A stretch of 64,000 nucleotides of DNA from Limnoperna fortunei (lineage: Eukaryota > Mollusca > Bivalvia > Mytilida > Modiolidae), in assembly GCA_944474755.1 (NCBI GenBank), contig OX104115.1:66508605-66572604 (forward strand), given 5' to 3'. Both the position numbers and the translations under genes were made by a program. This document shows, piece after piece, positions 3 to 64,000 of the stretch. Under the pieces are notes generated by a model. It was not told the DNA's origin, searched no databases, and worked only from the letters and a program-made list of their open reading frames with translations. Each line of letters begins with the position of its first letter. Within the stretch, counting starts at the first letter, position 1.

Positions 3-1575
3 GCGTGTGATGTAGAAGCTAAACGAACTGTAAAATCGTTTGACATTGGTCGTTTAACCAGAGATTTATGTTTAAAGACAATTTATTTAACTGCAGATGA
101 TGAATTTCGTTTAAATCCAATCAGATATTCCAACTGGCTCAGACTTTTACGTGTTCGCGCGTGGGTCAATAAATTTATTGAAAACTGCAGACTAGCAAAA
201 GAATAACGACGAAAAGGACCTTTAGTCATTGACGAAATCGACGAAACCGAATTACAGATTATTCGCGACGCACAACAGGAAAAATTGTGTGACGATTATC
301 GAGCTATTGCCAGAGGTAAACATTTACCAAGAAACAGTAAACTTGCTTGTTTAAATCCAAAACTCGATGAAAATGGACTGATGCGCAGTGATGGTCGACT
401 TGTGTATGCAAACTTTCTTCCGTACGATACTAGGTTCCCGATCATTCTACCGAGAAAGCACCGTGTAACAAGACTTATTGCAAAATATTACCACGAGAAG
501 GGTAAACACGTAAGTGGGACAAATCACACATTATCTGCAATGTCTGAAAAATTCTTGATTATTTCCGGACGCGAGAAAATACGGCAATATGAACTCGAAT
601 GCTATGAGTGCCGACGTCACAAAGCTAAAGTTGGACAGCAATTGATGGCCCCAATACCTGATATTCGGTTTAAAACTCCGTTAAAAGCATTTTGCGAGTA
701 CAGCAGTTGACTTTGCAGGGCCATTTATAACTGTGCAGGGCAGAGGAAAACGACGCGAAAAACGTTACTTGTGTCTGTTCACAGTATGACGACAAGAGCT
801 GTGCATCTTGAAATTGCCTATGGACTTGATACTGATTCGTTTCTGAACGCATTTTACCGTATGGTTAATCGCAGAGGACTACCGACTGAGATGATATCCG
901 ATAATGGGACTAATTTCGTAGGAGCTAATCGAGAATTACGAGAATTAGTTGAGAAACGGGACAAAGACAAAATTAACAATTCATTATGTAATCAATGGAT
1001 TAACTGGCATTTCAATCCTCTGGCAGCTCCACATTTCGGTGGCGTTCACGGGACAATGATAAAGTCAGCTAAGCGGGCCATATATGCTATACTTGGGAAT
1101 GCAGACGTTACAGACGAGGAACTTTTAACCGCCTTTACTGGTGCAGAATCGTTAATAAATTCGAGACCATTAACGTACCAGTCAGCTAATCCAAAGGACA
1201 ATGCACCGTTAACTCCGAATCACTTTCTTCATGGACAATTAGGTGGACAATTCGCTCCAGAATCTGTGGACGAAACGGACTTTAACCCGAGAAAACGATG
1301 GCGTAGAGTTCAAGAATTAGTGAAACATTTCTGGAATCGTTGGTTACGCGAGTGGTTACCAGAACTTAATAAACGATCAAAATGGACAAAAACTTTTAAG
1401 GACATAAAAGTTGACGATGTTGTTATTGTTGTAAGAGGACATTGGCCGTTAGGTAGAGTAATTGGGGTGTATCCGGGGAGAGATGGTCATGTAAGAGTGG
1501 CGAAAGTAAGGACAAAAGGAAAGTGTTTTAGTTAGACCGTTGTCAAAATTATGTCGTTTGGTATTAGATGATTAG
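3..1575 (+). pseudogene. BEL/Pao retrotransposon polyprotein, integrase end (broken)
   Basis: This is the C-terminal part of a BEL/Pao pol polyprotein, which would insert element cDNA into chromosomes. The frame is already open at the window's left edge. In order one sees a segment with WLRLLRVRAWV before the integrase, an HHCC zinc-binding region (YYHEKGKH to CYECRRH, about 500-625), the DDE core with first Asp in VDFAGP (709-711), second Asp in SDNGTNF (900-902) and Glu in GAESLINSRPL (1146-1148), then a C-terminal tail with PRKRWRRVQELVKHFW typical of Pao elements. It is dead: an in-frame TAA at 204-206, an extra T in the run at 690-693, a shift near 784-788 and another near 1520. After the last shift the tail reads to a stop at 1573-1575. 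Family assignment is by motif order; the rest of pol lies outside the window. Confidence 0.9.
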
Positions 1576-9434: not shown

Positions 9435-9468
<34 letters not shown>

Positions 9469-9470
<2 letters not shown>

Positions 9471-10310
9471 GTCTACAAATTAAGCCCAACACTGTTTGAA
9501 TTAGATTTTTAACACTGTCAAATTTTTGCTTTCCCTCAGCGGGATTCGAACTCACACCGTTGTGACACTGGCACCAATTCGCCTGCACTATGTCCAGCGG
9601 TCTAGACCCCTCGGCCAAATCCGCTATATAAAAATATAGCTTCATTAACCGGGGTGAATCTTAGACATAGACATAGTACATGTGTACTAGCGTGTGACGA
9701 TGGAATTTTCGTAACCAATACGTATTAATCTGACAGTAATCTAATTCAGCATTTTTGTATATATTATATAGGATGACAAAGTTACTTGTCATGCAGTCAC
9801 AGTAAGTAAATTATATACAAACGTTTAAGTATTGTGACAACCATATAATATATCTATCCAGCGGATTTCTGAAACATCAGAAATACAGGGTTAATATCAA
9901 ATATTTATATATACGTCTACAAATTAAGCCCAACACTGTTTGAATTAGATTTTTAACACTGTCAAATTTTTGCTTTCCCTCAGCGGGATTCGAACTCACA
10001 CCGTTGTGACACTGTGGCACCAATTCGCCTGCACTATGTCCAGCGGTCTAGACCCCTCGGCCAAATCCGCTATATAAAAATATAGCTTCATTAACCGGGG
10101 TGAATCTTAGACATAGACATAGTACATGTGTACTAGCGTGTGACGATGGAATTTTCGTAACCAATACGTATTAATCTGACAGTAATCTAATTCAGCATTT
10201 TTGTATATATTATATAGGATGACAAAGTTACTTGTCATGCAGTCACAGTAAGTAAATTATATACAAACGTTTAAGTATTGTGACAACCATATAATATATC
10301 TATCCAGCGG

Positions 10311-10316
<6 letters not shown>
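9469..10316. repeat. Tandem duplication, 444-bp period, nearly identical copies
   Basis: The string acgtctacaaattaagccca starts at 9469 and again at 9913. The copies agree over about 400 bases except for a TG present only in the second (cactggcacc against cactgtggcacc). The first unit ends in a segment reading ttctgaaacatcagaaatac that the second replaces with an AT run. Confidence 0.85.
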
Positions 10317-12388: not shown

Positions 12389-12646
12389 GCAGTAGCAGAG
12401 TGGTCTAGGTAGTTCGTCAACTATTGCTCACGTGGTCTGTCAACACTGAGATTGCGGGTTCGATTCTCACTGCAGGCAGGGTGTACTCGACTCCAATCTT
12501 AATTGACAAGGATTGCCAGTTTTCCTACCGCAGGTCAGGGGTTTTCTCCGGGTACTCCGGCTTCCTCCCCCAATAAAAACTGGACGCCATGATATAGCTG
12601 AAAAATTGCTGAAATTGGCGTTAAACACCATCAAACAAACAAACAA
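12389..12646 (+). mobile_element. SINE family A, near full length
   Basis: Head with box A-like GCAGAGTGGTCTAGG and box B GGTTCGATTCTC, then the body (gtgtactcgactccaatctt, gattgccagttttcctaccg, ccggcttcctcccccaat, aactggacgccatgatatag), then tail gttaaacaccatcaaacaaa running into (CAAA)n and an AT run. The head is that of a type II tRNA with a long arm. Copies elsewhere in the window define the consensus. It would be transcribed by RNA polymerase III and mobilised by a LINE, as is usual for SINEs. Confidence 0.85.
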
Positions 12647-29690: not shown

Positions 29691-30149
29691 ATTTCTTGCT
29701 ATAGTTGTATTCCTATTTAAACAGAACACTCAGCTGTTGAAATAAATGATTTTTTAACACACTTAATATTTTCCGCAACAGAATTATCTTTTTTTTCTCG
29801 GATAAGGTTCTCATGCTGTTATTATCTGGGTTAACATAAAAATTTCCGGTCATACATGTACATATATTTGCAGATACATTATATTTCATTTTATTGGTTA
29901 AGTTGATGGAATTTCTTACTCCCATTATCCGTAAAAAATAAAGAATTCTAACCTATACAATTTCAATATAAATGCAAATGTAAAATAAACAATGTCAAGG
30001 CCATTTGTGTTTATATTTTATTTGATTTCAAAACCAAACAGTCTCCACTTCCTCTAGTTTCAAATGAAACCATTTAAATAAAGTTAGAAGCTATCACTCT
30101 TACCTACGAAATAACATATTATTACTCAGAATTAAATATTTTTGAACTA

Positions 30150-30350: not shown

Positions 30351-30466
30351 TTACAATTTAATTTTGATTAGACTATTTTTAGCACATGCACGAGATGTTG
30401 TCTTAGCTGGTGGAGTACACTGATCAACGACAAACGTCCTTCTGCCTTCAATCCACTGTATCGTTC
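30351..30466 (-). CDS. Exon 9, C-terminus and stop
   Basis: 116 bases; acceptor atattatatattgcag. Codes TIQWIEGRRTFVVDQCTPPA, one more cysteine in RACAKN, and a basic end SLIKIKL, then TAA (30353-30351). I see no AATAAA on this strand close downstream, so the polyadenylation site is not placed. Confidence 0.75.
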
Positions 30467-33400
30467 CTGCAATATATAATATGAAATATTAAATAAAATA
30501 AAACTGTTTTGGTGTTATAAAATAGGTACATTGATATCAGTCTCTGTTAAGTCTGAGCCAGTCCAATTTTTTAGCTGTGCAGCTGATCTGGAGCCAATAC
30601 CACTGTACGAAGACATAATACAGTGTTGATATGAAAACAGTCAATTAAATTTACTTTTATAAACAACTGACAACCAATTAATCTCACTTGTTTGACATAA
30701 TAATATCTTTGATGCTGAAAATAACAAGCACTAGACTCAACTTTATTGTCAATTTAAGAAACCTGAAATTATATGAATACAGGTATATCCGCTGCATTAA
30801 AATTAATACAAGTAATATTCTACATATTAATTTGATGGATTATAAAATGGTCAATGAAGATAATATCAAAATACCGAAAACCAAGGAAATTGTCAAAAAG
30901 ACAAAGTAAAAGAAACAGAAAAAACAGTAAAAGAAAATTGATGAAAGTGGCGTTAAACACCATCAAACAAACAAACAAACAAACAAACAAAAAGACAATC
31001 CTCAAATCAAAGTAAAAGCAACCGGCAAACTAGAAAACCAACAAGTTCTACAATAATATTTATGTCTTACGTCACACAACAAACAATGAGGTGTTCTATG
31101 AATTGATTTTCATTCATTCTTTGCATAAATAGTGCAGTTTGCTGTTTTCAATCAAAGAATCATTTTTGCAAACTTTTTTTGTTATGGGGGTGAAACATTG
31201 GGAAATATTGGTAAACATATTTTGTAACTACTGTTTATTGAAAAAAATCAGTACGACCGATCCATTGTTATATGTTGAATATTGTCCAGAAAACACTGAT
31301 TTACAATGGAAAGGGAAGGAGTTTTTTCAGATAGATTGAAAAAGGGAAATCTGCTCAAAATACCGAGAGGTCACATGCATAAATTTTACGAAAATCATGA
31401 ACCACGGTCATATTTTTTTTATCGTTGACAGTTAAGGCATAAAAACATAATTACCGAAAAATGTATACGTTTCTCCAACTTGGAGGTGGGCGAAGGCGTT
31501 GGGGCACGTACTGGCGACGGTTGCTGGATCTATCGTGTTTATTCTGGCCAAATAATTATATGGTGTTTCACCCTATAAAATAATAAATATTTATTAATTA
31601 TGCTTTAGGTAAATTAACAAAAGTATTAATCGCCACTGCTATGGTCAGACCACATATAGTGCAGTTATCAGTATAAAAGTGCAGTACTAATAATTTATAA
31701 GTGATCTATCATTGGTTCAGAAAGATCCGTTAAATCCGGGACAATGATTGAGACGCACAGATCCGACACAAGATAACTTAAAAACAATGAACTCATAAAT
31801 GTCGTTAGGTTACTGGTTTGGTGCCAATGGGTTAAATTATTTTTTACCCCTCTATGGTCGAATGGGCATATTATTTACAAAACTTATAGAATTTTTACTT
31901 TTCCTTCTCTTATGAGTGGACATGCTTTAGACTGTCTTTGGAAATAAGTTCTTTAGAGTGATCCAGTATTCAAGTCGGTAATATGCTCCTTAATGTAGTC
32001 CAAGATTTTAGACTGCCTTTCAAACATTGTCATTAGAGTAGTCTAGTATTTCAGTCTGTACTAGATCGATCATATGGTTCTTAAACTAATCTAGTGTTTC
32101 ATATAAAGTTATATTGGCTTTATGTCCATCTGAGTCGTCTAGTATTTCGTACTGTCCTCGGCAATATAATCCAATATAATCCTCAGTTTTGTCCAGAATT
32201 TTGATCGTCTACAGCCCAATAATTGTTTTATTTAAGACTCTCGTTGGCTATATATACCTTAGAGTAGCATATTATTGGGATAAATGGTAATCGGAGTTGT
32301 CCAGTATTCAGATTGTTTTTGTATATACATGTACTTCTTACAGTAGTCCAATATTTCAAATTGTCTTTGACATTATGGTCCTATAAGTAGTTCAGTATTT
32401 GATAATGACAAGTTTTCGTCTGATATCGACACGGATGTACCTACCAAACAAACGCTGCGAACTGTTACGGTTGCAAATTTGTATCCAGCTGGTGGATTTT
32501 TTGGAATAAAGTCATCCCCATTTCTACATTTTGCAATCCATTCTACAAAAAATGTATTACTTTTTAAATCGTTTACGTTTTATTATAAATAGCCATAAAA
32601 CTGTGTAGAAACGTTTACATTTCATACTATTTTAAAGTATTCGTAAACATTCTTTCATTTTAAGTTCATTTACAATTCCTTGCTGCTATTTAAATATAAA
32701 TCCTAGGGCCTTCTATTAAATGTTAGATGAAATAATACACATCATTTCAGTTTCGAAAAAAAAAACTAGAAACGAACCGAACGTTTAAAGAGAATATTTG
32801 CCCGATATTTCATTCACAAAAAACGTTCAACAGTTAATCGCCATATTTTATTTATTTTCTGTATACTATTTACTTCTACCAAATGAAAGATTTTACCGAC
32901 CTTGTTATACAACAATATTATAAGTATTTACTATTTTTAGTATATTGTTTTATTTGTAACCAAGTTTTGATTATATATTTCTTTAAATTCTTTGTCGTAA
33001 GAGCTTTCTGTTGAATATCAATTTACTTTTCCTCTCACATACAATCTTCCTTTTTTCATTGTTTCGTATGCAAAGCACGTGTTTTAAAATCTATCTGATG
33101 TGACGCAATCACTATTACCATTTTAATCTCAAATGTTACATGATTTCTAGTAAACACCTTCGGTTTATTCTTCGCGGACCTGCTAAATGTAAGTAGTTTT
33201 GGGTCGCTTTTTTCCTAGTTCTTAAGTGTTGGCAGCTAAGTTTGAAATGTTTGGACGGTATATTTAGTATTGATGAAACTGTTCGTGAATAGTACACTGG
33301 CAAATATGCATAATGTCAACCGTACAATCTGATATTCACGAAAGCCAGCAAACCTATTCTATCGTTGACTATATAGAATTATGGCCCTTAGAAGAGCTGA

Positions 33401-36400
33401 GTATCAGATAATCTTGCTTTGAGTAGCAGACTATCGAAATTACTGTAATGTGACTATTTAGTGACTATTAATGAATTGAGTTTATATATATGTAAGCTAT
33501 AATAATTGGCAATTACAATCTTACCAAATTTTCTTCTGGCATAAATATTGTTGACATATTGTGAGCTACATTGACAAGGATCTTCAACATAAAACATAAA
33601 TGCGATTAAAAGTATTTATAAAATGAAATCTAATAATATCGGTCTGAAACTGAATAAAAAATATTTGCAGTTAATACAGATTAACGTTGAGGCCTATTTC
33701 TGATATAGCACACTAGTTCAATAAAAGTCTTCAATATTGTGATTAATTGACTGAATAATGCCATGTTTCTGCATATTTCTGTTAAGGATCTGTATTCAAT
33801 ACGCTATAGGGGGTGACATTATATTTCTAGATACCACATAATTTTTGTTATTTTTTTCTATAAAGATGCATGCATTTTTTTTCCAAAAGTAACGTAATAA
33901 GTGTGGGTTGCAAAATTATATATGTAAGTCCAGTAGGCAGAATGTTAATGTTAAAACACATCTCCTGTTATCTTGGAGTGATAGGTGATCTACTAATGGA
34001 ATAAGATTAGATAAAGGTAGATACTACCTGGCAGTACAGTAGTTGTCATTTCACCACCTTGGAGTAACGTAACCTTCTGAGCACCCCCTGACAGTAAAGC
34101 AGTCGATTGACCCTTGCATGTCTCTTGACAGGGATTACATGGTGTGATTCCCGGCAATACTACATCACCTGTACCTAAAAGAATAAATAGTGGAAATTGT
34201 AATAAAACACAAAACCCATGCTTGATGTATTTAAAACTAGCAATTGTATTTACAGATACCAAGGTTTTAAAATCTGCTTCGCCATCGGCGCGTTTCGCTT
34301 AATCAAGACGTATCTCTGGATCACACTATAAATCTACCATAAGAACACAAAAGATATTAAATTAGAAATAATTAGAAATAAAACGAAACAAAGAATTTAG
34401 CATTTATGCATTTGTGGATCAGTAGCAAACAATTGTGTATTGCCTGCTATTACACCGAAAATGCTACTTCTCGGTTTTGGATTAAAGCCTATTGTACTAC
34501 TATGGGAATGTATCCTGGTTCTGAGTTTCTGTCGATTGCAGCTACGTTTAGAATACATTCTGGTTGTGGTTACCTGCCTGTTGTAGGGTCGTGTACGATA
34601 CATCCATGCTCTATCTGGTTTTAATGACTTCTGGAAGCTGTAATCTTTTATCAGAAAAGAGACTAGATCTACACGTAATAGTTATAGTTACAGTTACTAC
34701 ATACAACAAGAAAAACTATTATATGAACTAGAGACATGTGTTCAAATAGATTGTTTGTTTGTTTGAATTGTCTTAAACGCCACTTTCTGCAATCTTTATC
34801 TATACTATTGCATTCAGTTTAAATTGGTAGAAAACCGGTGTACCCGCAGAAAACCACCGACCTTCGGTTGGAAAACTGACAATCCTTGTTAATAAAGTTT
34901 GAAGTCGAGTACACCCATTGCACAGCGTTACTTGAACCCACAACTTCAGTGTTGACAGAGGGGCCTCGGTGTCCGAGTGGTCAAGGTAGTTCGTCTACTA
35001 ATGATCACGTGGTCTGTCAACACTGAGATTGCGGGTTCGATTCTCACTGCAGGCAGGGTGTACTCGACTCCAATCTTAATTGACAAGGATTGTCAGTTTT
35101 CCTACCGCAGGTCGGGGGTTTTCTCCGGGTACTCCGGCTTCCTCCTCCAATAAAAACTGGACGCCATGATATAGCTGAAAAATTGCTGAAAGTGGCGTTA
35201 AAACACCATTCAAACAAAGAAACAAACAAACAAACAGTGTTGACAGGCATGTGATCAACACTAGATGACTAACTACCTTAACCACCGAAGCCCTGTTCAA
35301 ATAAAAGCATTTCTCTAATAAGTATTATGGACATTTACTCTGGTAATGTATAAAAATTCACAATATAGTACTATATATGTGTTCACTTTTTCATGCATAT
35401 ATAATAAAAAAGTTTTGTATTGCTATCTCTTAGATACTACTAAAAAAGTAATTGCACGGAATTGTCGTGGTGAATAATGTAATTGTAAATAACATTAAAG
35501 TATGTACAATTACAGCATAGATCAAGTGTTCTTTGACACCGTACAAATATTATTTATAAGACATATTGTGTTGCATATTTTAGCATGGATATAAAGATTT
35601 AAAAAGTTGTTATAAACATTTTCCTAGACAACATTCACGGTAGTATTTTAATTTCAAATGTATTCTTTATGTCACTTATTATAACAAGATATGTGTATAC
35701 TAATGTACAATGTATACTAGACGCGGGTTGTTATTGTTTCGGAAAAGCAATGTTTTACAAAATAATATCACAAAACAAATATATAGTTAAAATAGAAATT
35801 AGTGTTATGACACTTTGTAGACGCTAGAGGCTTAAGCCAACGACGCATGCAATAAAGATGGATAAATCAGGCAATATATTATTTGACGATAACATTGCTT
35901 AATGGTTATTAATATGTTTTACATTATAACTGTCAAGCTTTTATACAAGTAATTAATGTAAAGTGTTGCTGTATAGGTGTTTTAGTTTTGCCTCTATTTT
36001 ATTCAAAAGCTTACTTAAGTTAGTACTGTTTATATTTAGTTGTATGTTACATACATGTACGAAAACAACAAAGAACAAACAGTGAAATATACCCCCAAAA
36101 AGTTAATGCAGCAACCAACAGTCATTGATTAAATTGCTGGAGCAATAACATGTAAGGACTATGAAGTTTTAAAAATGGCATATTAAAAAATAAATCACAA
36201 ATCTATCAAGAGTTAAAATTACTATTATATATTAGAAATGCGATATGGATTTTGTATAAATACTGTGTAGTCATAAGATACCATCGGAAACGATACGTAC
36301 CCGATCCCACTCGTCGGAGCGTACGAACATCAGAATCTGGTATCGGTGTTGCATATTTACAAAAATTGCACGTAGGACTATTATCTAGTGGAGTACGATC

Positions 36401-39400
36401 GCCTGGTAGAATAAGTACTCGTTCTGTAGGCAGAACCAAGCCATTTAGATCTGAAATAATTGAGTTAAAAAGCATCTATCACAAGTGGAAAAGCGAGGAA
36501 AAATCTTAAATTCAAAAAAAAAAAAAAATACGTTTTCCGCAAAATGTCCATCGTAGACTACATTCGCGGTAGCTAACTATATTTGTTGATATCTTTTATT
36601 GGGTGTCTGACATTTGCCAGTCTTGCCTTACCTTACATATTAGATACTTTCTATCTCGCAAACTGGACATCTGGAGATCTTTCTATATCTCGGTTAAGAA
36701 ATAAAACTCTAACACATATTTCTGTTCCTTTCTATTAAGGAAAGTCGTCAAATAAACCAAATAAATTAATTTGGTATACAAACGAGTAGTAGTTGTATTG
36801 CATGATATTTTGTTTTATTACATAAAGCAGCAGCTGGCTGCAGCCATGTAGTACGACAAGCAGATTCAAACCTTACAATTAAAATAAGTACCAAACCGTA
36901 AAAGGATCAAATATGCAATACATGAATCGAAGGCTGAAGTTAAAAATATTTTTTTAAATAAAAAATGGGGCTTCGTCAAAAGTCTCATGTTGTTCCTTTA
37001 AACTATCGAGAAAAGGGGGTTGCAAATTAGCATCAGATAAAAACCAAACAATGAATATATCAGATGATAAGGCGATTAAATATTGGTCAGTTAAATCTAT
37101 AATGCATATTATAAAATAATGCATACTCCATGACGATATACATAAAATATATGTAAATATTTTCTTATAAGAAGACTTAAAATATGTCATGGTACGTGAT
37201 ATTTTGTAAGCCTGACAAGAAATCAAATTGCAGTTTATGTTAACCGTGTCTTTAGAACTGTTTTTACAATGAAAACGATTCAAATCTAAACATGTTCAAG
37301 ATTAGAAGACAATATCATTTTAAAATCAGTCAATTATTTAACAATTATTTACCTGAGAACAAGTAAAAATAGAATAAATCATCAGACACTTTGGTCAACC
37401 GCATACACAAATACAAACATCTATCTTCGAATTCGGACGTATCAAAAAAGCAAGTACGGCTCCTGAAAGGAACAAAATAACAATTTAAACAAATATTTAA
37501 TATTTTTTATTTTTTATAAGTTTTTTATAGATTGCAGTCATAAATATTTAAACTTTTTATACAAACTACAAACATTGGCCACAAAACATCTAAAAACTTA
37601 ATCCTTACAAAATGTCATTCACTTGAAATATTCACTGCTTCAGAGTGTTTATTATAATTTCATTGACAAGTTTCCCGCCATAATGATAACACGCATGACG
37701 CTTACATAAACTCAAACGCGGTGTTAACGGTTGAGACTTACTTAACACACATCTTGTCGAGGTTGGAAGTTTAAACGGAAGTGCACATACAGAAGCTATA
37801 TGTTCCTACTTACAGGAAGACAAACAACTCTAAACGTTGGAGATGTATTAGTACCGGAACAAAACCATGCTCTCGACGTTGAAGATGGATACTTACTAAA
37901 TACACGAGCACTTTATCGAAGATTGAGACGCATACCTACGCAAACACAAACAATTTTGTCGACGTTTAAGATATATAGCTGCATGCGGGTGAACAAACAA
38001 CCTTGAAGAGTTATGCCTACATTACCCTGAACACATAGACTTTGTTTACGTTGGTGATGCATACTTACAGGAAGACCAACCCCTTTTACGTTGAAGAAGC
38101 TAGATTGCTAAAACAAACATTTCTGAGATGCATACTTGCCGAAATGCAAAGAGTCTCGTTGACTGGGTTAAACATCTAATTTACATCACGTGCATGTTAA
38201 CTCTTAGACTGCGGTTTCGAGCTTAACTGCAGGTAAGTTGTGTTCTACTCCAACCAAAATTTACACTGATTGCCAGTTTTTTTCGCTGCTCATCAATTGT
38301 GGGGTTTTCATCAGGTATTACGGCTTCCTCCCCTTATAAATACTGAAGGCCATGATATAGCTAAAAAGTTCTGAACGTGGCATTAAAACAGATATTTAAA
38401 TGAAAACCATAACACATGATAAAAGTATACTAACTTGAAGACGTAGTTATCGTCCTTATTAGAGATACAGTCATAGGTCCGTATAATTGCGCTTTGTCCT
38501 CTTACAGATAAGTCAAAGTTGCTCATGTATGAAGATCCAAATGTAAGAGTAATTTGCCTATTCCCTTCCCCACCTCGGTATTCCCAGCCAGACGATTGAA
38601 GGGTTCCCGGTAAGCTACACTGAGAATCTGTTAAAGGAAGTAATCATTGTTTTAATCAAAATATTCTAAACTTTTATTGATGTAACAACCTGCTTGACAT
38701 ACATGTATAAACAGTGTTTTTATACGAAGAATATTGTTCAGTCAATTCCGTGTTAACCCTGGCGAGAAAGAGTTTATTCTAGTGTGTAACCAATGACTCT
38801 TGACTAGGGTCAAACAGTTTGTAAAGTGTAGTGATCGGATACTTGTGACTCGGAGACAGTCGGTTTGTTCTAGTGGAGTGAACAAGGACTGGTAACTTTT
38901 CTAGGACGTCACTATGAAACATTAAGTTGTAAGTGAATTAACAAGCCATTTGTCTAACTACGTCAGTGTTAAATCATTGCAAACATGATTGAACGTGATG
39001 GTCTGATACAAGGAATCCATGGTAAGACTCATTTAATTCTTCCACACGCTCTTTTTGATCTTTTTTGAATGGCTGGGGAAATAGTTTGTTCTATGATATT
39101 CCATTATTATAGCTACTTCAAATTTTGTACATCACGGATGATATATTCGATACATTAAGATTTAGATAGTTCAAGGACGTGTCATCAGAACACGGAAATT
39201 TTTCACCTATATCTTAAGTAATTTTATCCACATATATTGTGCTAGTTGTATTATAAGGGACTATAGAAGTGACACTGAGCAGTTTTTATAATTAAATCAA
39301 AGAGACCATTGCATATATATCTATGCAAAATTATAGTTAATATATTTTACCTGCAGTAGAAAGAACAGACCACAACACAAACAAAGCTGACAATCGCAGA

Positions 39401-39408
39401 CGACACAT
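30351..39408 (-). CDS. Secreted cysteine-rich protein, nine exons, 348 residues
   Basis: Minus-strand gene assembled from splice sites: exons 39408-39351, 38627-38435, 37462-37353, 36450-36301, 34174-34028, 33581-33525, 32542-32445, 31572-31455 and 30466-30351. All introns are GT-AG. The phases fit at all eight junctions and the total is 1047 bases, 348 codons plus TAA. The N-terminus MCRLRLSALFVLWSVLSTA is a signal peptide with a likely cut before DSQC. The mature chain has 17 cysteines, including CNFC, CNPC and CQC, no N-glycosylation sequon and no later membrane segment, so it is probably extracellular. Most introns interrupt in phase 1, common for shuffled extracellular modules. The half after CQC loosely recalls an NTR-type module, but I cannot confirm this. 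Function unknown. SINEs and degenerate repeats fill the introns. Confidence 0.78.
30935..30990 (+). mobile_element. SINE family A, tail only
   Basis: aaattgatgaaagtggcgtt and aaacaccatcaaacaaacaa with six or seven CAAA units. Lies in intron 8 of the secreted-protein gene. Confidence 0.7.
31455..31572 (-). CDS. Exon 8 of the secreted-protein gene
   Basis: 118 bases; acceptor ttattttatag, donor G|GTAATTAT. Codes GETPYNYLARINTIDPATVA through TCPNAFAHLQVGETYTFF. A diverged copy of this exon is at 63363-63466. Confidence 0.8.
31910..32415. repeat. Degenerate ~55-bp tandem repeat in intron 7
   Basis: Blocks of the form agtagtccagtatttcagac followed by tgtctttggcattatggtcct recur about every 50-65 bases, for example near 31955, 32000, 32040, 32095, 32290, 32340 and 32390. 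Strongly diverged. Confidence 0.6.
32445..32542 (-). CDS. Exon 7 of the secreted-protein gene
   Basis: 98 bases; acceptor attttttgtag, donor G|GTAGGTAC (phase 0). Codes from WIAKCRNGDDFIPKNPPAGY to VTVRSVCL; two cysteines. Confidence 0.75.
33525..33581 (-). CDS. Exon 6 of the secreted-protein gene
   Basis: 57 bases, phase 1-1; acceptor tttatgttgaag, donor G|GTAAGATT. Codes PCQCSSQYVNNIYARRKF. The acceptor has a mediocre pyrimidine tract, but the frame fits both neighbours. Confidence 0.7.
34028..34174 (-). CDS. Exon 5 of the secreted-protein gene
   Basis: 147 bases, symmetrical phase 1-1; acceptor ttattcttttag, donor G|GTAGTATC. Codes TGDVVLPGITPCNPCQETCK to EMTTTVLP. Its xVLPG..P-C-x2-C pattern echoes exon 4, so exons 4 and 5 may be an old duplicated module. 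Confidence 0.75.
34751..34958 (-). mobile_element. SINE family A, host copy (part 1 of a split copy)
   Basis: Minus-strand SINE with tail (ttgtttgtttgtttgaattg), body and box B region, cut at cagtgttgacag (34947-34958) by the plus-strand copy at 34959. Its head continues at 35235-35293. Confidence 0.85.
34959..35234 (+). mobile_element. SINE family A, full-length nested copy
   Basis: Complete 276-base plus-strand element: head ggggcctcggtgtccgagtg, box B GGTTCGATTCTC, body, and (CAAA)n tail. It is flanked on both sides by the 12-base target duplication cagtgttgacag (34947-34958 and 35235-35246), showing retroposition into an older copy of the same family. The most intact copy in the window, useful for defining its ends. 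Confidence 0.92.
35235..35293 (-). mobile_element. SINE family A, host copy (part 2, tRNA-like head)
   Basis: Continuation of the split minus-strand copy: target duplication, then gcatgtgatcaacactagat and gactaactaccttaaccacc, matching the head region of other copies. Confidence 0.8.
35294..36300. other. Intron 4 of the secreted-protein gene, remainder
   Basis: AT-rich sequence with no other supported feature. Confidence 0.4.
36301..36450 (-). CDS. Exon 4 of the secreted-protein gene
   Basis: 150 bases, symmetrical phase 1-1; acceptor attatttcag, donor G|GTACGTAT. Codes LNGLVLPTERVLILPGDRTP, then a CNFC pair and a DSDVRTLRRVGS end. Confidence 0.75.
37353..37462 (-). CDS. Exon 3 of the secreted-protein gene
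   Basis: 110 bases; acceptor gttcctttcag, donor G|GTAAATAA. Codes SRTCFFDTSEFEDRCLYLCM and continues to FYFYLFS; three cysteines. Frame continues exon 2 by completing a Lys codon. Confidence 0.78.
38196..38400 (+). mobile_element. SINE family A, diverged copy in intron 2
   Basis: Plus-strand blocks: actgcggtttcgagcttaac (box B region), ttgtgttctactccaaccaa, ttacggcttcctccccttat, aggccatgatatagctaaaa. The head is eroded. Confidence 0.65.
38435..38627 (-). CDS. Exon 2 of the secreted-protein gene
   Basis: 193 bases; acceptor ctttaacag, donor AA|GTTAGTAT (phase 2). Codes from SQCSLPGTLQSSGWEYRGG to DDNYVF, with two cysteines and an amphipathic, strand-like pattern. This is the largest exon. 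Confidence 0.78.
39351..39408 (-). CDS. Exon 1: signal peptide
   Basis: Codes MCRLRLSALFVLWSVLSTA plus one base (phase 1); donor G|GTAAAATA. Basic n-region, hydrophobic core LSALFVLWSVL and S-T-A before the cut. Confidence 0.78.
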
Positions 39409-39883
39409 AGTGCAGCAATACGTCTAACACTGATGTCGATGTCGTATTTATACATCTTATATATACCGAAACCTATTGATTTTCTTATTGATACGCGGAT
39501 AACGTTACTGATTGGAGGGAAACTGACAATGTAATCTTTTGATAAAAATACAAATAAAATTACTCTTTTGTTCGGGTGACAAAATAACAGCATCTTTTGT
39601 CAAAATTTCCATGTTGACATGACATATTATTAAATATTTTTTGTAGTAATTAACCACTTTAATTAAATAATGTGAGATAGTTTAATACAATTTAAATTCC
39701 TCGTGCATTTACATCTTTATATATATATATATATGTTTAGTTGCAGTCTTGACTTTAATACGGCTTAACAGTCGACGATTTTCTGGTAAGAAAAATTGGT
39801 TTCTAGCGTTAAATATGGATGCGGACTCTCAATTTTATGCCAAGTAAATAAATAAATAAATATATATATATATATATATATAT
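39409..39883. other. Upstream flank of the secreted-protein gene
   Basis: Core promoter elements lie at 39428-39465. Beyond them only AT-rich sequence with AT runs at 39719-39733 and 39860-39883. Confidence 0.4.
39428..39465 (-). promoter_or_regulatory. Core promoter of the secreted-protein gene
   Basis: On the minus strand TATATATAAG (39465-39456) is followed about 33 bases later by TCAGTG (39433-39428), an initiator-like motif. The start codon at 39408 lies about 20 bases further, giving a very short 5' leader if this is the start site. Confidence 0.45.
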
Positions 39884-40250
39884 ACGTCTACAAATTAAGC
39901 CCAACACTGTTTGAATTAGATTTTTAACACTGTCAAATTTTTGCTTTCCCTCAGCGGGATTCGAACTCACACCGTTGTGACACTGTGGCACCAATTCGCC
40001 TACACTATGTCCAGCGGTCTAGACCCCTCGGCCAAATCCGCTATATAAAAATATAGCTTCATTAACCGGGGTGAATCGTAGAAAGCAAAAATTTGACAGT
40101 GTTATCAATCTAATTCAAACAGTGTTGGGCTTAATTTGTAGACGTATATAGAAATATTTGATATTAACCCTGTATTTCTGATGTTTCAGAAATCCGCTGG
40201 ATAGATATATTATATGGTTGTCACAATACTTAGACGTTTGTATATGTATA
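39884..40250. mobile_element. TIR element with tRNA-like core
   Basis: Left arm acgtctacaaattaagccca to ttttgctttc (39884-39948) and right arm 40084-40145 are inverted repeats of each other. Between them is the same minus-strand tRNA-like core (box B tcagcgggattcgaactcac, box A gacccctcggccaaatccgc) as in 9469-10316, nearly identical to it. To the right, 40146-40250 is the reverse complement of 9820-9912 (gaaatccgctggatagatat, atatggttgtcacaatac). Shows the element as a free unit, separate from the 9-10 kb tandem. Confidence 0.75.
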
Positions 40251-46270: not shown

Positions 46271-46446
46271 ATTTTTTAATGGCTTAAAATATATATTATT
46301 TTCAAATAAATGACAAATAAATTATTATATATTAACTAGAATAAGAACTACTGTGAAATATAACATATATGTAATTAATATCGATCGAGCAATCGAGTTG
46401 TAAATGATGTCTTAAACACATACTGTACGATAGAACAAGGCAGTAA

Positions 46447-47470
46447 GGAGACATGAGAAAATTGTCATAACATATTTACTGTAAACGTAACCTTATTTCA
46501 TCAGGAGACATGAGAAAATTGTCACACCATATCTTATGTAAACATAGCCTTATTTCACCAGGAGATGGAGAAAATTGTCACAACATATCTCATGTAAAAG
46601 TAGCCTTATTTCTCCAGTAGACATGAGACATTGTCATAACATATCTCATGTAAACGTAACCTTATTTCACCAGGAGACATAAGAAAATTGCCACAGCGTA
46701 TCTCATGTAAACGTAACCTTATTTCACCAGGAGACATAAGAAAATTGCCACAGCGTATCTCATGTAAACGTAACCTTATTTCACCAGGAGACATGAGAAA
46801 ATTGTCACACCATATCTTATGTAAACATAGCCTTATTTCACCAGGAGACGTGAGAAAATTGTCACAACATATCTCATGTAAAAGTAGCCTTATTTCTCCA
46901 GTCATGCCAGTAGACATGAGACATTGTCATAACATATCTCATGTAAACGTAGCCTTATTTCACCAGGAGACATGAGAAAATTGTCACAACATATCTTATG
47001 TAAACATAGCCTTATTTCACCAGGAGACATGAGAAAATTTTCACAACATATCTCATGTAAACGTAACCTTATTTCACCAGGAGACATGAGAAAATTGTCA
47101 CACCATATCTTATGTAAACATAGCCTTATTTCACCAGGAGACGTGAGAAAATTGTCACAACATATCTCATGTAAAAGTAGCCTTATTTCTCCAGTAGACA
47201 TGAGACATTGTCATAACATATCTCATGTAAACGTAACCTTATTTCACCAGGAGACATAAGAAAATTGCCACAGCGTATCTCATGTAAACGTAGCCTTATT
47301 TCACCAGGAGACGTGAGAAAATTGTCACAACATATCTCATGTAAAAGTAGCATTATTTCTCCAGTAGACATGAGAAATTGTCATAACATATCTCATGTAA
47401 ACGTAACCTTATTTCACCAGGAGACATAAGAAAATTGCCACAGCGCATCTCATGTAAACGTAGCCTTCTT
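46447..47470. repeat. 57-bp tandem repeat, about 18 copies
   Basis: Unit begins ggagacatgagaaaattgtc and includes catatctcatgtaaacgtaa and ccttatttcacca. Starts at 46447, 46504 and 46561 are exactly 57 apart. Variant units (ccagtagacatgagacattg) recur near 46615, 46910, 47194 and 47366 and mark a higher-order pattern. Since 57 is 3 x 19, frames stay open on both strands for 95-103 codons, giving 19-residue repeats (plus: ISCKRNLISPGDMRKL; minus: LHEICCDNFLTSPGEIR). Confidence 0.93.
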
Positions 47471-47975
47471 TCAATATTCAAGGAGATGGCACACGTCGGA
47501 GAATCGTACATTTTGAAGCGACATCGAGATTTTAATATTGTCTAGAATCACTGAACCAAGACCACTTGAGCACATTATAAAATAGTCTGTGACTGCTTAC
47601 TTGTCCAGAGCACATGAATTCGCCCATGATTTTTTTTCGTTTTGACTTTTTGTTTACCTTTTGAGTTAGTGTTTGTTGAGAGTTGTGTATGATTGTCTGA
47701 ATACGGATTTGTAATCATCCCTTGACCTTTGACCAGTTCCTGTTGTTTCGTCGGTTTCTTCTCTATTTGTGTGTAACAGACACTATAACACATTATTATA
47801 CTTTCTGTAAAAATGTCCTTTAATAAAAATATTTTACCATTTTGACATATATTTCTAAACGAATTGTGCTCCGTGCACTATGCTCTCAAAGTTTCTCCAC
47901 CTGCCTAAGAAAACTATTGATTTGGACGTCAATCAATTGTAATTCACGCGAATGGGCGTGGTTAACTTGTAATCA
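47471..47975. other. Noncoding stretch beside the 57-bp array
   Basis: A minus-strand frame at 47575-47793 (KKPTKQQELVKGQGM) is open, but has no recognised domain or well-placed splice sites. Confidence 0.35.
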
Positions 47976-58335: not shown

Positions 58336-61300
58336 AGTACATGTTCAATCGCGCTTGACGGCTTTCACGTAAGATTGAATGATATGATTACTTCGATTTG
58401 CTCATTATATATTTTTGCGGCATACATGCCTTCTGATGAAATAATTGATAAATATAAATATGAGATAGACATTCTTGATAGTTTATACAAGCAGTATACT
58501 AACTATGGTAGTGTATTGACAGCTGGTGACCTAAATGCTAGCTGCATTAGTTCAGATATTCATAGATCAAATAGGGCAAAAGCAAGACTTCTGTGTGACT
58601 TTATCAATAGTAATAATTTACCTCATGCACCCAAAGATATCGAAATAATTGGTCCTCATTATTCATATGTTACAAAGAAAACAATGTTAGACTATATACT
58701 TTTTGACATATCAATAAGGTCGAAAACCAAAAGCTATGAAATCCTTGCTGAAGGGAGTTTTAGCACTACGTCTGACCATTTACCCGTTATCATGAACATA
58801 AGTATTTCCGGTAACCCCCATCAAATATTAGAAATAGCAAACAAGTTCCCGGCATGGCACAAGATATGTGATGATGAAATTAAAAATTACCAGTCACAAT
58901 TAAAAGACGATTTACTAAAACTTGCTAGAAACATCGATTCTCGATCAATCGAAATTGAAGAAGCATATCAGAACTTTATTGATTTATTGCATCGAGCCGC
59001 TAATGTTTCAGTTCCCAAATGTGGTTGCAACCCTGCTACGAAACCCTACTGGAATAAAGAACTAAAACAAACGCACAAACACGAACGACAGCTGAGAAAT
59101 ATATGGCTAAATGAGGGTCGGCCTCGTGGTATGCAATTCGAATCCTATAAAGCATACAAAAGCGCTAAATCTGACTTTAGACGGGCTCAACAGCATGCAA
59201 ACCAACAATATTTAAACAAGTGTTACGAAGATTTAAATAAAGCAGCGGAATGTGATCTTAGACTGTTCTGGAAACTTTTAAAACGCTTTAAACCGGGCAA
59301 AAGCAAGATTTATCCGGAAATAATTTACCAAGGTGAAATCAATAACAACCCACAAATAATAGCAAACGCCTTTGCTAATTATTTTACTGATCTGTACAAG
59401 TCGGACAATACTACAGTCTTTGATGATAACATGAAGATAACGGTTGACAATGCATATGCAGAGATGATACGCACCACATATGAATGCGATGAAATTTTAC
59501 CTGGTGGATTTGTGACAGAACATGAAGTATCAGATATAATGAAGCGCTTAAAACGACGGAAAGCAAGTGGATATGATGGAATCCAACACGAACACTTAAT
59601 TTTTTGGGGGACCAGCATGTGTTAAATGTTTAACTAGTCTATTCAATCAAGTCATAAATGTCGGAAAAATACCTGATGCGTGGAAGTATAGCCTAATTGT
59701 TCCGATATTTAAAGGGGGAACAAAACCGAAAAACTCACCAGACAGTTATAGACCTGTAAGCCTACTACCATGCTTTTTAAAAGTTTTCGAACATTTGATT
59801 CAAACTAGAATTACAGAGCACCTGCTGAATGACAAAATATTCCCAAACAACCAACAGCAAGGTTTTCAAAGGCATTTAAGTTGTATCACTGCAACTTTCA
59901 ACCTACAAGAAACAATATATCATAACCTTGAAATGTATGGTAAAATTTATGTTGCCTTTCTAGATAGTAAAGAAGCCTTTGACACTGTTTGGCGCAAAGG
60001 TTTAATGTATAAACTATATACTCTTGGGGTAAAAGGAAAAGCATGGAAAATTATTAATGACTGTCGTATCGATACTAAAAGTGCTGTTGTAATTAACCAA
60101 ACAAGATCAAAGGTTTTCAATGTTCTTCAAGGTGTAAGACAAGGCGGTGTTATGTCTAGTCTTTTATACTTAGTTTTTATTGATCAATTGCTCATTGACT
60201 TAGAGATTTGTAGTAAACAAATAGGTATTTATAATATAAATAGTTGTTGCCCAAACCTTGCTGACGATGTATCCTGTATAGGGACGTCTCCAACTGGTTT
60301 ACAACGAATGCTTAATGTATTCGAATCATATGCACACAAATGGAGATTTAGATTTAATGGTAGTAAATCATGTATCGTACAATTTTCGCTAAATTCAAGA
60401 AAAAATCCTACAAATTTCGAGTGGAAAATACAAACTGAGACTATTCCAATTGCTGATAAGTATTCTCATCTTGGTATCGAACTAAAATCTAATCTTAAAT
60501 ATGACGACCGAATTGAAAATCTTTGCAGAAAAGGCAAAAACTCATTATTTGCAACAAGTGCTATTTACTCAAAAGAAGTCAACCCAATCAGTTACCTCCG
60601 CATTTATAAATTTGTTACATTACCAACTGTATTATATGGATGTGAATTACTATCGAACATGAACAAATCTGATGTTGCTATTTTTGATAAGTTGTCAAAC
60701 ATTTACTTAATTTGAAAAACTCCACAAGGTCGGATATGGCTCAAAGTATTTTAGGACTCCATCCAATAGAATCGTATATAGATAAATGAAAACTTTATTT
60801 CCTACAGAAACTTTGTCAACTAGAAAACGAATATCTATCAAAAAAAGATATTTCTAACAAGGCTGTTTTCTTTCTTCACCGATTCCAATCGTACTCAATA
60901 TGGATTTGTTCGAGATATATTAAACATTCTATCAAAATATAAACTTGAAACCTACTTGAACAATTTTCTTGAGGTCCTTACAGGCTGCAAAATCTTATAG
61001 CGAAATTCTTACTTAGTTTTGAAACTTATTACAGATATACCAGATTCCACTAGTGGATATTGCAAACTGTGTGAAAGAAACTATTCGGATGTTTATGTGC
61101 ATGCTTGCTGCAATTGTACAGCAACGCTTGACTTACGGAACATATTCTGGTCCGTTGTTATCGAAAATTGTCCTATAGAACTCTTTGCGGAAATAAACAA
61201 ATATGACGAGGAGAATCTTTATCAAGTATTGTTATTAAAATGTGTATCAGATATAACTTATGATATCGACCAATTCATTAAGCTGTGCAACACGCATGTT

Positions 61301-63362: not shown

Positions 63363-63466
63363 AAATAGATAAGTTTCAGGTTGGCGAATGCGCTATAGCA
63401 CTTACTGTCGACGGCTGCTGGATTTATGGTGTTTAGTGTGGCCGAATAATTATATCGTATTTCACC
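63363..63466 (-). pseudogene. Paralogue of secreted-protein exon 8 (decayed)
   Basis: Minus strand: acceptor ttttattttatag followed by GEIRYNYSATLNTINPAAVD and SKCYSAFANLK, aligning residue by residue with exon 8 of the 30-39 kb gene (GETPYNYLARINTIDPATVA...TCPNAFAHLQ). After this about 10 bases are missing relative to exon 8, the frame shifts, and the G|GTAATT donor is lost (here c-ttgtgt). The neighbouring intron (63520-63790) also resembles 31600-31830. Further exons of the copy, if any, would lie beyond the right edge. Confidence 0.72.
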
Positions 63467-64000
63467 CTATAAAATAAAATAGTTATTAAGTATACCATTT
63501 ACTATGTAAATAACAGAAAAATCAACAATAGCTGGTCAGCCTATATAGAGGGCATGTTTACAACACTCATAAACGTACAGTGCAAATAAGCAGTACTATT
63601 AACATTTCATTCACAAAAAATTTATCTCACTTAATCTGATTTAGTATTAGATAAAACAATCAGTTCTATATGAGAAAAAAGACACTGACACAGATCTGTA
63701 TACTAGATTAATAATGAAACACGTAAAGATAAATGCCGTTTCTCTCAAAACCTTGTTTAATTTATGACTTGATGTGCCTTTATCTGTCCAAAGGTTTAAT
63801 ATAAGCACGTCAATACTATTTTATGGAATTTTGTACTCATCCACAGTGGAAGTGGGCACAGAGTGGGCATGTCTGTGCTGCCCTTTCATCATAGTGATTA
63901 GTTTGTTTTTAATTTATATTTCTTCCCCTTTTCAAGTTTGACACGAGAATTATGTAACAAGAAAGGATCTAGAAAATTGGAACAGCCAAAATAAACGTTT
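63467..64000. repeat. Duplicated intron sequence of the secreted-protein locus
   Basis: Blocks such as gcagtacta, cacagatc...agat and gataaatgccgtt recur in the same order as in intron 7 of the 30-39 kb gene (31640-31810), so the duplication includes noncoding sequence. Diverged, with small indels. Confidence 0.5.

Follow-up and report, generated by a model that had tools for sequence, protein, structure and literature searches.

A nine-exon gene of Limnoperna fortunei predicted to encode a secreted, two-module cysteine-rich protein of an expanded family

Introduction

Lipocalins are built on an eight-stranded antiparallel barrel and carry G-x-W near the N-terminus. The main defining mark of NTR modules is a set of six conserved cysteines forming three disulfides, and in secreted frizzled-related proteins such a module follows an N-terminal cysteine-rich one (PMC2542364, available part of the text). 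TIMPs coordinate the protease zinc through the amino and carbonyl groups of the exposed mature N-terminal Cys-1 (PMC3679795, available part), and an expansion of bivalve TIMPs has been described whose members fit TIMP signatures and, for the most part, consist of five exons (PMC10755359, available part). Here we analyse 64,000 nucleotides of the bivalve Limnoperna fortunei (GCA_944474755.1, contig OX104115.1, positions 66,508,605 to 66,572,604), hereafter the window, and a minus-strand gene within it whose predicted protein partly resembles these systems, with an N-terminal module (N-module) that may be a lipocalin- or avidin-type barrel and a C-terminal module (C-module) that may be NTR-like.

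Results and Discussion

Gene model

Comparison of the sequences establishes the predicted gene structure, its expanded family, coding constraint, a signal peptide and two cysteine-rich modules joined by a variable linker. As judged from the genomic letters, this is a real gene of nine exons on the minus strand that is under constraint, and it is more than a chance assembly because of its family matches in the same genome and the constraint on its coding sequence. Rebuilt from the window, the coding sequence totals 1047 nt (348 codons plus stop) and is uninterrupted, and the eight introns are all GT-AG with phases 1, 2, 1, 1, 1, 1, 0, 1 in order. The nine segments with agreeing phases, the predominance of phase-1 introns (6/8) and the longest exon of 193 nt that had been put forward in a first-pass annotation of the window were all recovered. 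Its count of 17 cysteines is right for the protein without residue 2, which lies within the signal peptide and brings the total to 18. Residues 5-16 of the signal peptide have a mean Kyte-Doolittle value of 1.77.

Each of three alternative donor combinations that were tried broke the frame. Splice sites were ranked by a simple custom score against all GT or AG sites of the gene interval. The donors rank high, each being outscored by 1 to 38 of 563 GT sites, whilst each acceptor is outscored by 2 to 114 of 451 AG sites, three of them being strong and five middling.

A family in the same genome

The full protein was searched against the same genome (1.335 Gb in 285 contigs), giving 116 exon-by-exon matches at E <= 1 from the best 116 of 148 candidates. 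At least 15 loci, including that of the window, contain exon 8 and at least 31 contain exon 4, these counts being lower bounds because the search scored the best candidates only. An exon 8 lies within 15 kb at 14 of the exon-4 loci and is lacking at 17. One of the latter, near 62.426 Mb of C4, probably pairs with a lone exon 8 at 62.404 Mb, and therefore about 16 N-module-only loci remain. The family sits partly in tandem clusters, and no intronless copy (retrocopy) was noticed among the matches.

Eleven paralogous loci in eight joined clusters were then spliced exon by exon. Seven yielded complete in-frame nine-exon models, C4a was completed by an exon 1 found separately, and C4b and C4c are represented by exons 2-9, the exon 1 assigned to C4c by script being spurious and dropped. 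The remaining locus, C5c1, has exon 7 interrupted by a stop and passed the script only with that exon shortened; it was excluded from both the alignment and the table of nonsynonymous to synonymous substitution rate ratios (dN/dS), whilst C8b2, near-identical to C8b1, was left out of the alignment (A1). Nine paralogues are 55-83% identical to the window protein, and 13 cysteines are invariant (residues 23, 73, 103, 148, 151, 183, 186, 222, 224, 270, 294, 327 and 338). The joint presence of C88 and C99 is restricted to the window gene and its two nearest copies, C5a and C5b, as is C244, and the introns of the window gene can be aligned to those of both copies.

Overall dN/dS of the window gene is 0.36 against C5a and 0.43 against C5b. 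Ratios are higher in the linker (0.47 and 0.92) than in the modules (0.29-0.37). Overall values for five other paralogue pairs range from 0.28 to 0.53, and C8b1 and C8b2 have too few differences for an estimate. By these estimates coding constraint is real but not strong everywhere. The first-pass proposal of a cysteine-rich host protein that is encoded by many exons and starts with a signal peptide is thus well supported by the gene model, the genome family, the paralogue models, their alignment and dN/dS.

The TATA box proposed ahead of the gene corresponds to TATA-like hexamers 57 and 44 nt before the ATG. All ten upstream stretches compared carry a TATA-like hexamer 44 to 63 nt ahead of the ATG, and TATAAATAC is found in nine of them, the exception being C4a. 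At the other end, eight paralogues have AATAAA 18-23 nt past the stop, where the window has AATGAA (30352-30347), and the window protein extends 10 residues beyond its last cysteine as against 3 to 5 in ten others. Both departures, together with the exon 7 stop of C5c1, would suit a window copy that is a decaying pseudogene of the family. However, this copy has neither internal stop nor frameshift, its dN/dS against both nearest copies speaks for constraint, and CCAAT and TATA-like elements are retained, so that we regard decay as very unlikely.

Relatives elsewhere

In a set of 5.8 billion proteins the full protein had no match at E <= 10 (1193 candidates), nor did it match any Pfam or PDB family above cut-off; an alignment of the C-module matched none of 149 candidates from the same set. 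The N-module alignment matched three of 635 candidates (P0001-P0003; E 1.2e-48 to 1.7e-43), at 44-46% identity over 97% of the module. All three are ENA entries whose contigs measure 1.2-2.6 kb and presumably derive from transcripts. They are uninterrupted across exons 2-5, and therefore three of the eight joins are independently supported. One has a Thr/Ser-rich tail, and two have a terminal hydrophobic stretch that by eye resembles a membrane helix. Within L. fortunei, locus L059 contains two tandem copies of exons 2-5, with a Thr/Ser-rich stretch past exon 5 in at least the first, and no convincing C-module was found in the 6.5 kb fetched. Because the database relatives and L059 carry exons 2-5 with other tails, the predicted N-module is a separable unit. 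These comparisons establish a modular make-up for the family, in which the N-module occurs with or without the C-module and is followed, among the database relatives, by either a Thr/Ser-rich tail or a membrane-helix-like stretch.

Against viral contigs, the N-module matched none of 32 stretches and the C-module matched 2 of 15 (L061 and L062), over residues 58-95 only. The matching frame of L061 (4479-5162) reads as a viral-contig protein in which one strand motif resembles VGETYTFFGT from exon 8; we took this as chance. A surface-level literature survey found no description of the two-module architecture or of the family, which is weak evidence.

The N-terminal module

A fold model of P0003 is all-beta, with nine strands placed at low confidence between residues 38 and 120, and lipocalins, nitrophorins, avidins and designed barrels make up most of the nearest solved folds listed for it. 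The model thus lends moderate support to the N-module being a lipocalin/avidin-type beta-barrel. It resembles such (calycin) barrels in its predicted all-beta make-up and nearest listed folds, but differs in having no sequence match to solved structures and in its added CxxC-rich tail. A first fold model, with a mean predicted local distance difference test (pLDDT) of 35, was set aside, its best Foldseek hit being no better than E 0.23.

The nearest Pfam profile to the N-module is DUF7043 (PF23070). Of 13 N-module sequences, two align to it in closely similar registers (profile positions 4-79 and 4-75 of 104), L060 at 14.4 bits (E 0.05) and P0002 at 17.3 bits (E 0.0061); both are below the cut-off of 27 bits, and the E of 0.05 means little alone because other families appear in N-module scans at E 0.13-0.17. 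The Pfam scan found no DUF7043 match in the N-module of the window member, and none of the nine DUF7043 matches in the same genome is at a family locus. The scores below cut-off and the matches to other families led us to reject membership. Two strong DUF7043 matches, at 26.90 and 26.97 Mb of C11, lie in open frames of 690 and 716 codons, apart from the family.

The C-terminal module

In 11/11 models the C-module begins with CxC and has six cysteines at relative positions 0, 2, 48, 72, 105 and 116; a seventh, at 22, occurs in the window gene and in the two copies nearest to it. The six cysteines that mark NTR modules are thus present in number, and positions 0, 2, 72 and 105 resemble 0, 2, 71 and 100 of TIMP-2. 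A TIMP search of the same genome gave 13 matches from 19 candidates, none of them at a family locus. A weak TIMP match (E 0.91) spans profile positions 1-19 in 57 bases, the length of exon 6 here. Four TIMP exons out of the 13 matches were read, and each follows a phase-1 intron that lies 12 residues ahead of a cysteine; the phase-1 intron preceding exon 9 splits the glycine codon of YTFFG, 16 residues ahead of the cysteine in that exon. The acceptors of these TIMP exons were chosen by eye as the most acceptor-like AG, with other AGs nearby in 3/4 stretches, and the codons split there presumably also encode glycine. The likeness of the introns is suggestive only, because six of the eight introns here are phase 1.

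The C-module is thus like a TIMP/NTR module in its six invariant cysteines, its initial CxC and, with the TIMP acceptors as chosen by eye, a phase-1 intron before a hairpin ending in the next-to-last cysteine, but unlike one in having no profile similarity, two cysteines elsewhere and an internal CxC. These likenesses hint weakly at an internal NTR-like domain that may derive from a TIMP-type N-domain by exon shuffling. The order of modules recalls secreted frizzled-related proteins, with only a putative NTR module here, although the N-module has no Pfam match to the frizzled cysteine-rich domain.

Were the protein cleaved just ahead of CxC, the C-module might be a true TIMP-type metalloprotease inhibitor, given that CxC is kept in 11/11 models and that TIMP inhibition uses the amino group of the exposed Cys-1 (PMC3679795, available part). 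However, the predicted protein has its CxC behind another module, at residue 222, and because of this internal position TIMP-style inhibition is unlikely. The residue preceding CxC is Pro, Leu or Thr in the alignment, and a conserved cleavage motif was not noticed, no dedicated motif search having been made. We consider a cleaved inhibitor highly improbable.

Interpretation

On balance we favour a functional host gene of a multiplied family that encodes a secreted cysteine-rich protein of two modules and a variable linker, with a probable barrel as N-module, more tentatively an NTR-like C-module, and a proposed binding role. Of the functions considered, we infer that a secreted extracellular binding protein is the likeliest. 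Such a protein would be secreted in soluble form to body fluid, mucus or matrix, where the N-terminal barrel would take a ligand or partner and the C-module would fix the protein to matrix or to another protein. TIMP-type metalloprotease inhibition would play no part, since it would require cleavage before CxC, of which no sign was noticed. Alternatively, the protein may be a structural or adhesive part of secreted material (mucus, shell or attachment matrix) that binds no ligand. Its signal peptide, many cysteines and variable linker fit this role, as do the Thr/Ser-rich tails of relatives, but both modules resemble constrained folded domains rather than repeats and two relatives have a hydrophobic end like a membrane helix; a structural role therefore seems rather unlikely.

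Several observations weigh against the two-module binding protein as we picture it. The gene model is predicted from genome sequence, and no transcript of it was encountered. The window's intron phases were imposed when the paralogue models were built, so that phase agreement among paralogues is partly by construction; open exons with GT-AG borders at matching places in many loci are independent of the imposed phases. No Pfam or PDB family was above cut-off for the protein or its family profiles, and the first-pass statement that no family could be recognised holds for the searches made in these databases. Family profiles gave PDB matches at best E 8 and E 0.76, or none, and a Pfam scan of 10 family members gave one match (PH_3, E 0.12), all taken as chance. 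The barrel model has a mean pLDDT of 40.5 with no Foldseek hit at E <= 0.001, and in place of the lipocalin G-x-W the family has S-x-W, an invariant S32 standing two places before an invariant W34. In the C-module, two of the six cysteines are off the TIMP-2 pattern (0, 2, 12, 71, 100, 125). Its hhalign score against a three-sequence TIMP profile was 11.6, which 60/100 shuffles equalled or exceeded (shuffle mean 12.4; N-module 13.3; reversed TIMP 12.8), and TIMP kinship by hhalign was rejected. The NTR-like fold suggested at first pass for the part after CQC hence found no support by profile, and stands circumstantially on the six invariant cysteines from CxC onwards and on the TIMP-like phase and place of the intron.

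The C-module may then have a fold of its own, unrelated to NTR or TIMP, with the CxC start and the intron match coincidental. The lack of Pfam and PDB matches above cut-off, the scores no better than those of shuffles, the presence of only four TIMP-2-like cysteine positions out of six and the prevalence of phase 1 throughout the gene all agree with this. What it leaves to coincidence is a phase-1 start ahead of a hairpin that resembles four TIMP exons of the same genome, and a weak TIMP match whose length equals that of exon 6. We give it a substantial chance, somewhat short of even.

Beyond the favoured binding protein, a fuller history can be sketched only tentatively, and we doubt it more than we believe it. 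In an undescribed family, exon shuffling would have joined a lipocalin-like barrel to an NTR module of TIMP origin, which became internal and so lost its free-cysteine inhibitory site. The family would then have spread to at least 15 loci with both modules and about 16 with the barrel only, with relatives elsewhere bearing a membrane anchor or a mucin-like tail. If the fusion is true, a protease-inhibitor domain has been reused as an internal extracellular module; if false, the paralogues and intron positions still aid annotation of similar genomes. Because no tested member of this sizeable, constrained family is above a Pfam cut-off, annotation of such genomes would list its products as unknown proteins. 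The protein is probably of an ordinary, lineage-expanded extracellular type. Marine invertebrates commonly have secreted cysteine-rich families expanded in this way, and the surprise is therefore limited.

Features of the window

Table 1. Elements of the gene and its relic, in window positions.
Feature	Position	Strand	Support or remark
Exon 1, signal peptide, residues 1-19 plus one base	39351..39408	-	matching exon 1 in seven complete paralogue models and C4a
Exon 2, N-module start (C23, W34, C73)	38435..38627	-	paralogues; joined to exon 3 in P0001-P0003
Exon 3, N-module (C88, C99, C103)	37353..37462	-	paralogues; P0001-P0003
Exon 4, N-module end, CxxC pair C148/C151	36301..36450	-	paralogues; P0001-P0003
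Exon 5, second CxxC (C183/C186), C190, variable linker	34028..34174	-	paralogue models, alignment
Exon 6, CxC (C222/C224) opening the C-module	33525..33581	-	paralogue models, alignment
Exon 7, C-module (C270 invariant; C244)	32445..32542	-	paralogue models, alignment
Exon 8, C-module (C294)	31455..31572	-	genome search, paralogue models, alignment
Exon 9, C-module end (C327, C338) and stop; begins after a phase-1 intron in the Gly311 codon	30351..30466	-	paralogue models
TATA-like boxes, TATATA 39465-39460 and TATAAATAC 39452-39444	39444..39465	-	upstream comparison with paralogues
CCAAT element	39511..39515	-	CCAAT in 9/10 upstream stretches; the tenth, C5b, ends early in fetched sequence
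Nearest AATAAA past stop	30017..30022	-	begins 331 nt after start of stop codon
Relic of exon 8 and a piece of intron 7	63371..63493	-	83% DNA identity over 118 bp, 56% over 32 residues

The exon-8 relic lies about 24 kb upstream of the gene, and no other exons were found near it within the window. Intron 4 holds an interspersed repeat (34751-35225) with an inverted self-match (76%) and other copies in the window, such as 12398-12646 (96% over 251 bp). A 446-bp unit at 9457-10313 is present in nearly two copies, 99% alike; judged by eye, part of it matches the sequence around 39870-39999, which lies upstream of the gene, and we take a sequence in this unit to be a tRNA-like B-box. Elsewhere, a retrotransposon-like remnant with an integrase zinc-binding domain (below cut-off) and DUF5641 occupies two adjoining frames at 207-1535 (+), and retrotransposon-like pieces of endonuclease and reverse transcriptase occupy two overlapping frames at 58336-60715 (+). 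A tandem array at 46446-47473 consists of 18 copies of a 57-bp unit.

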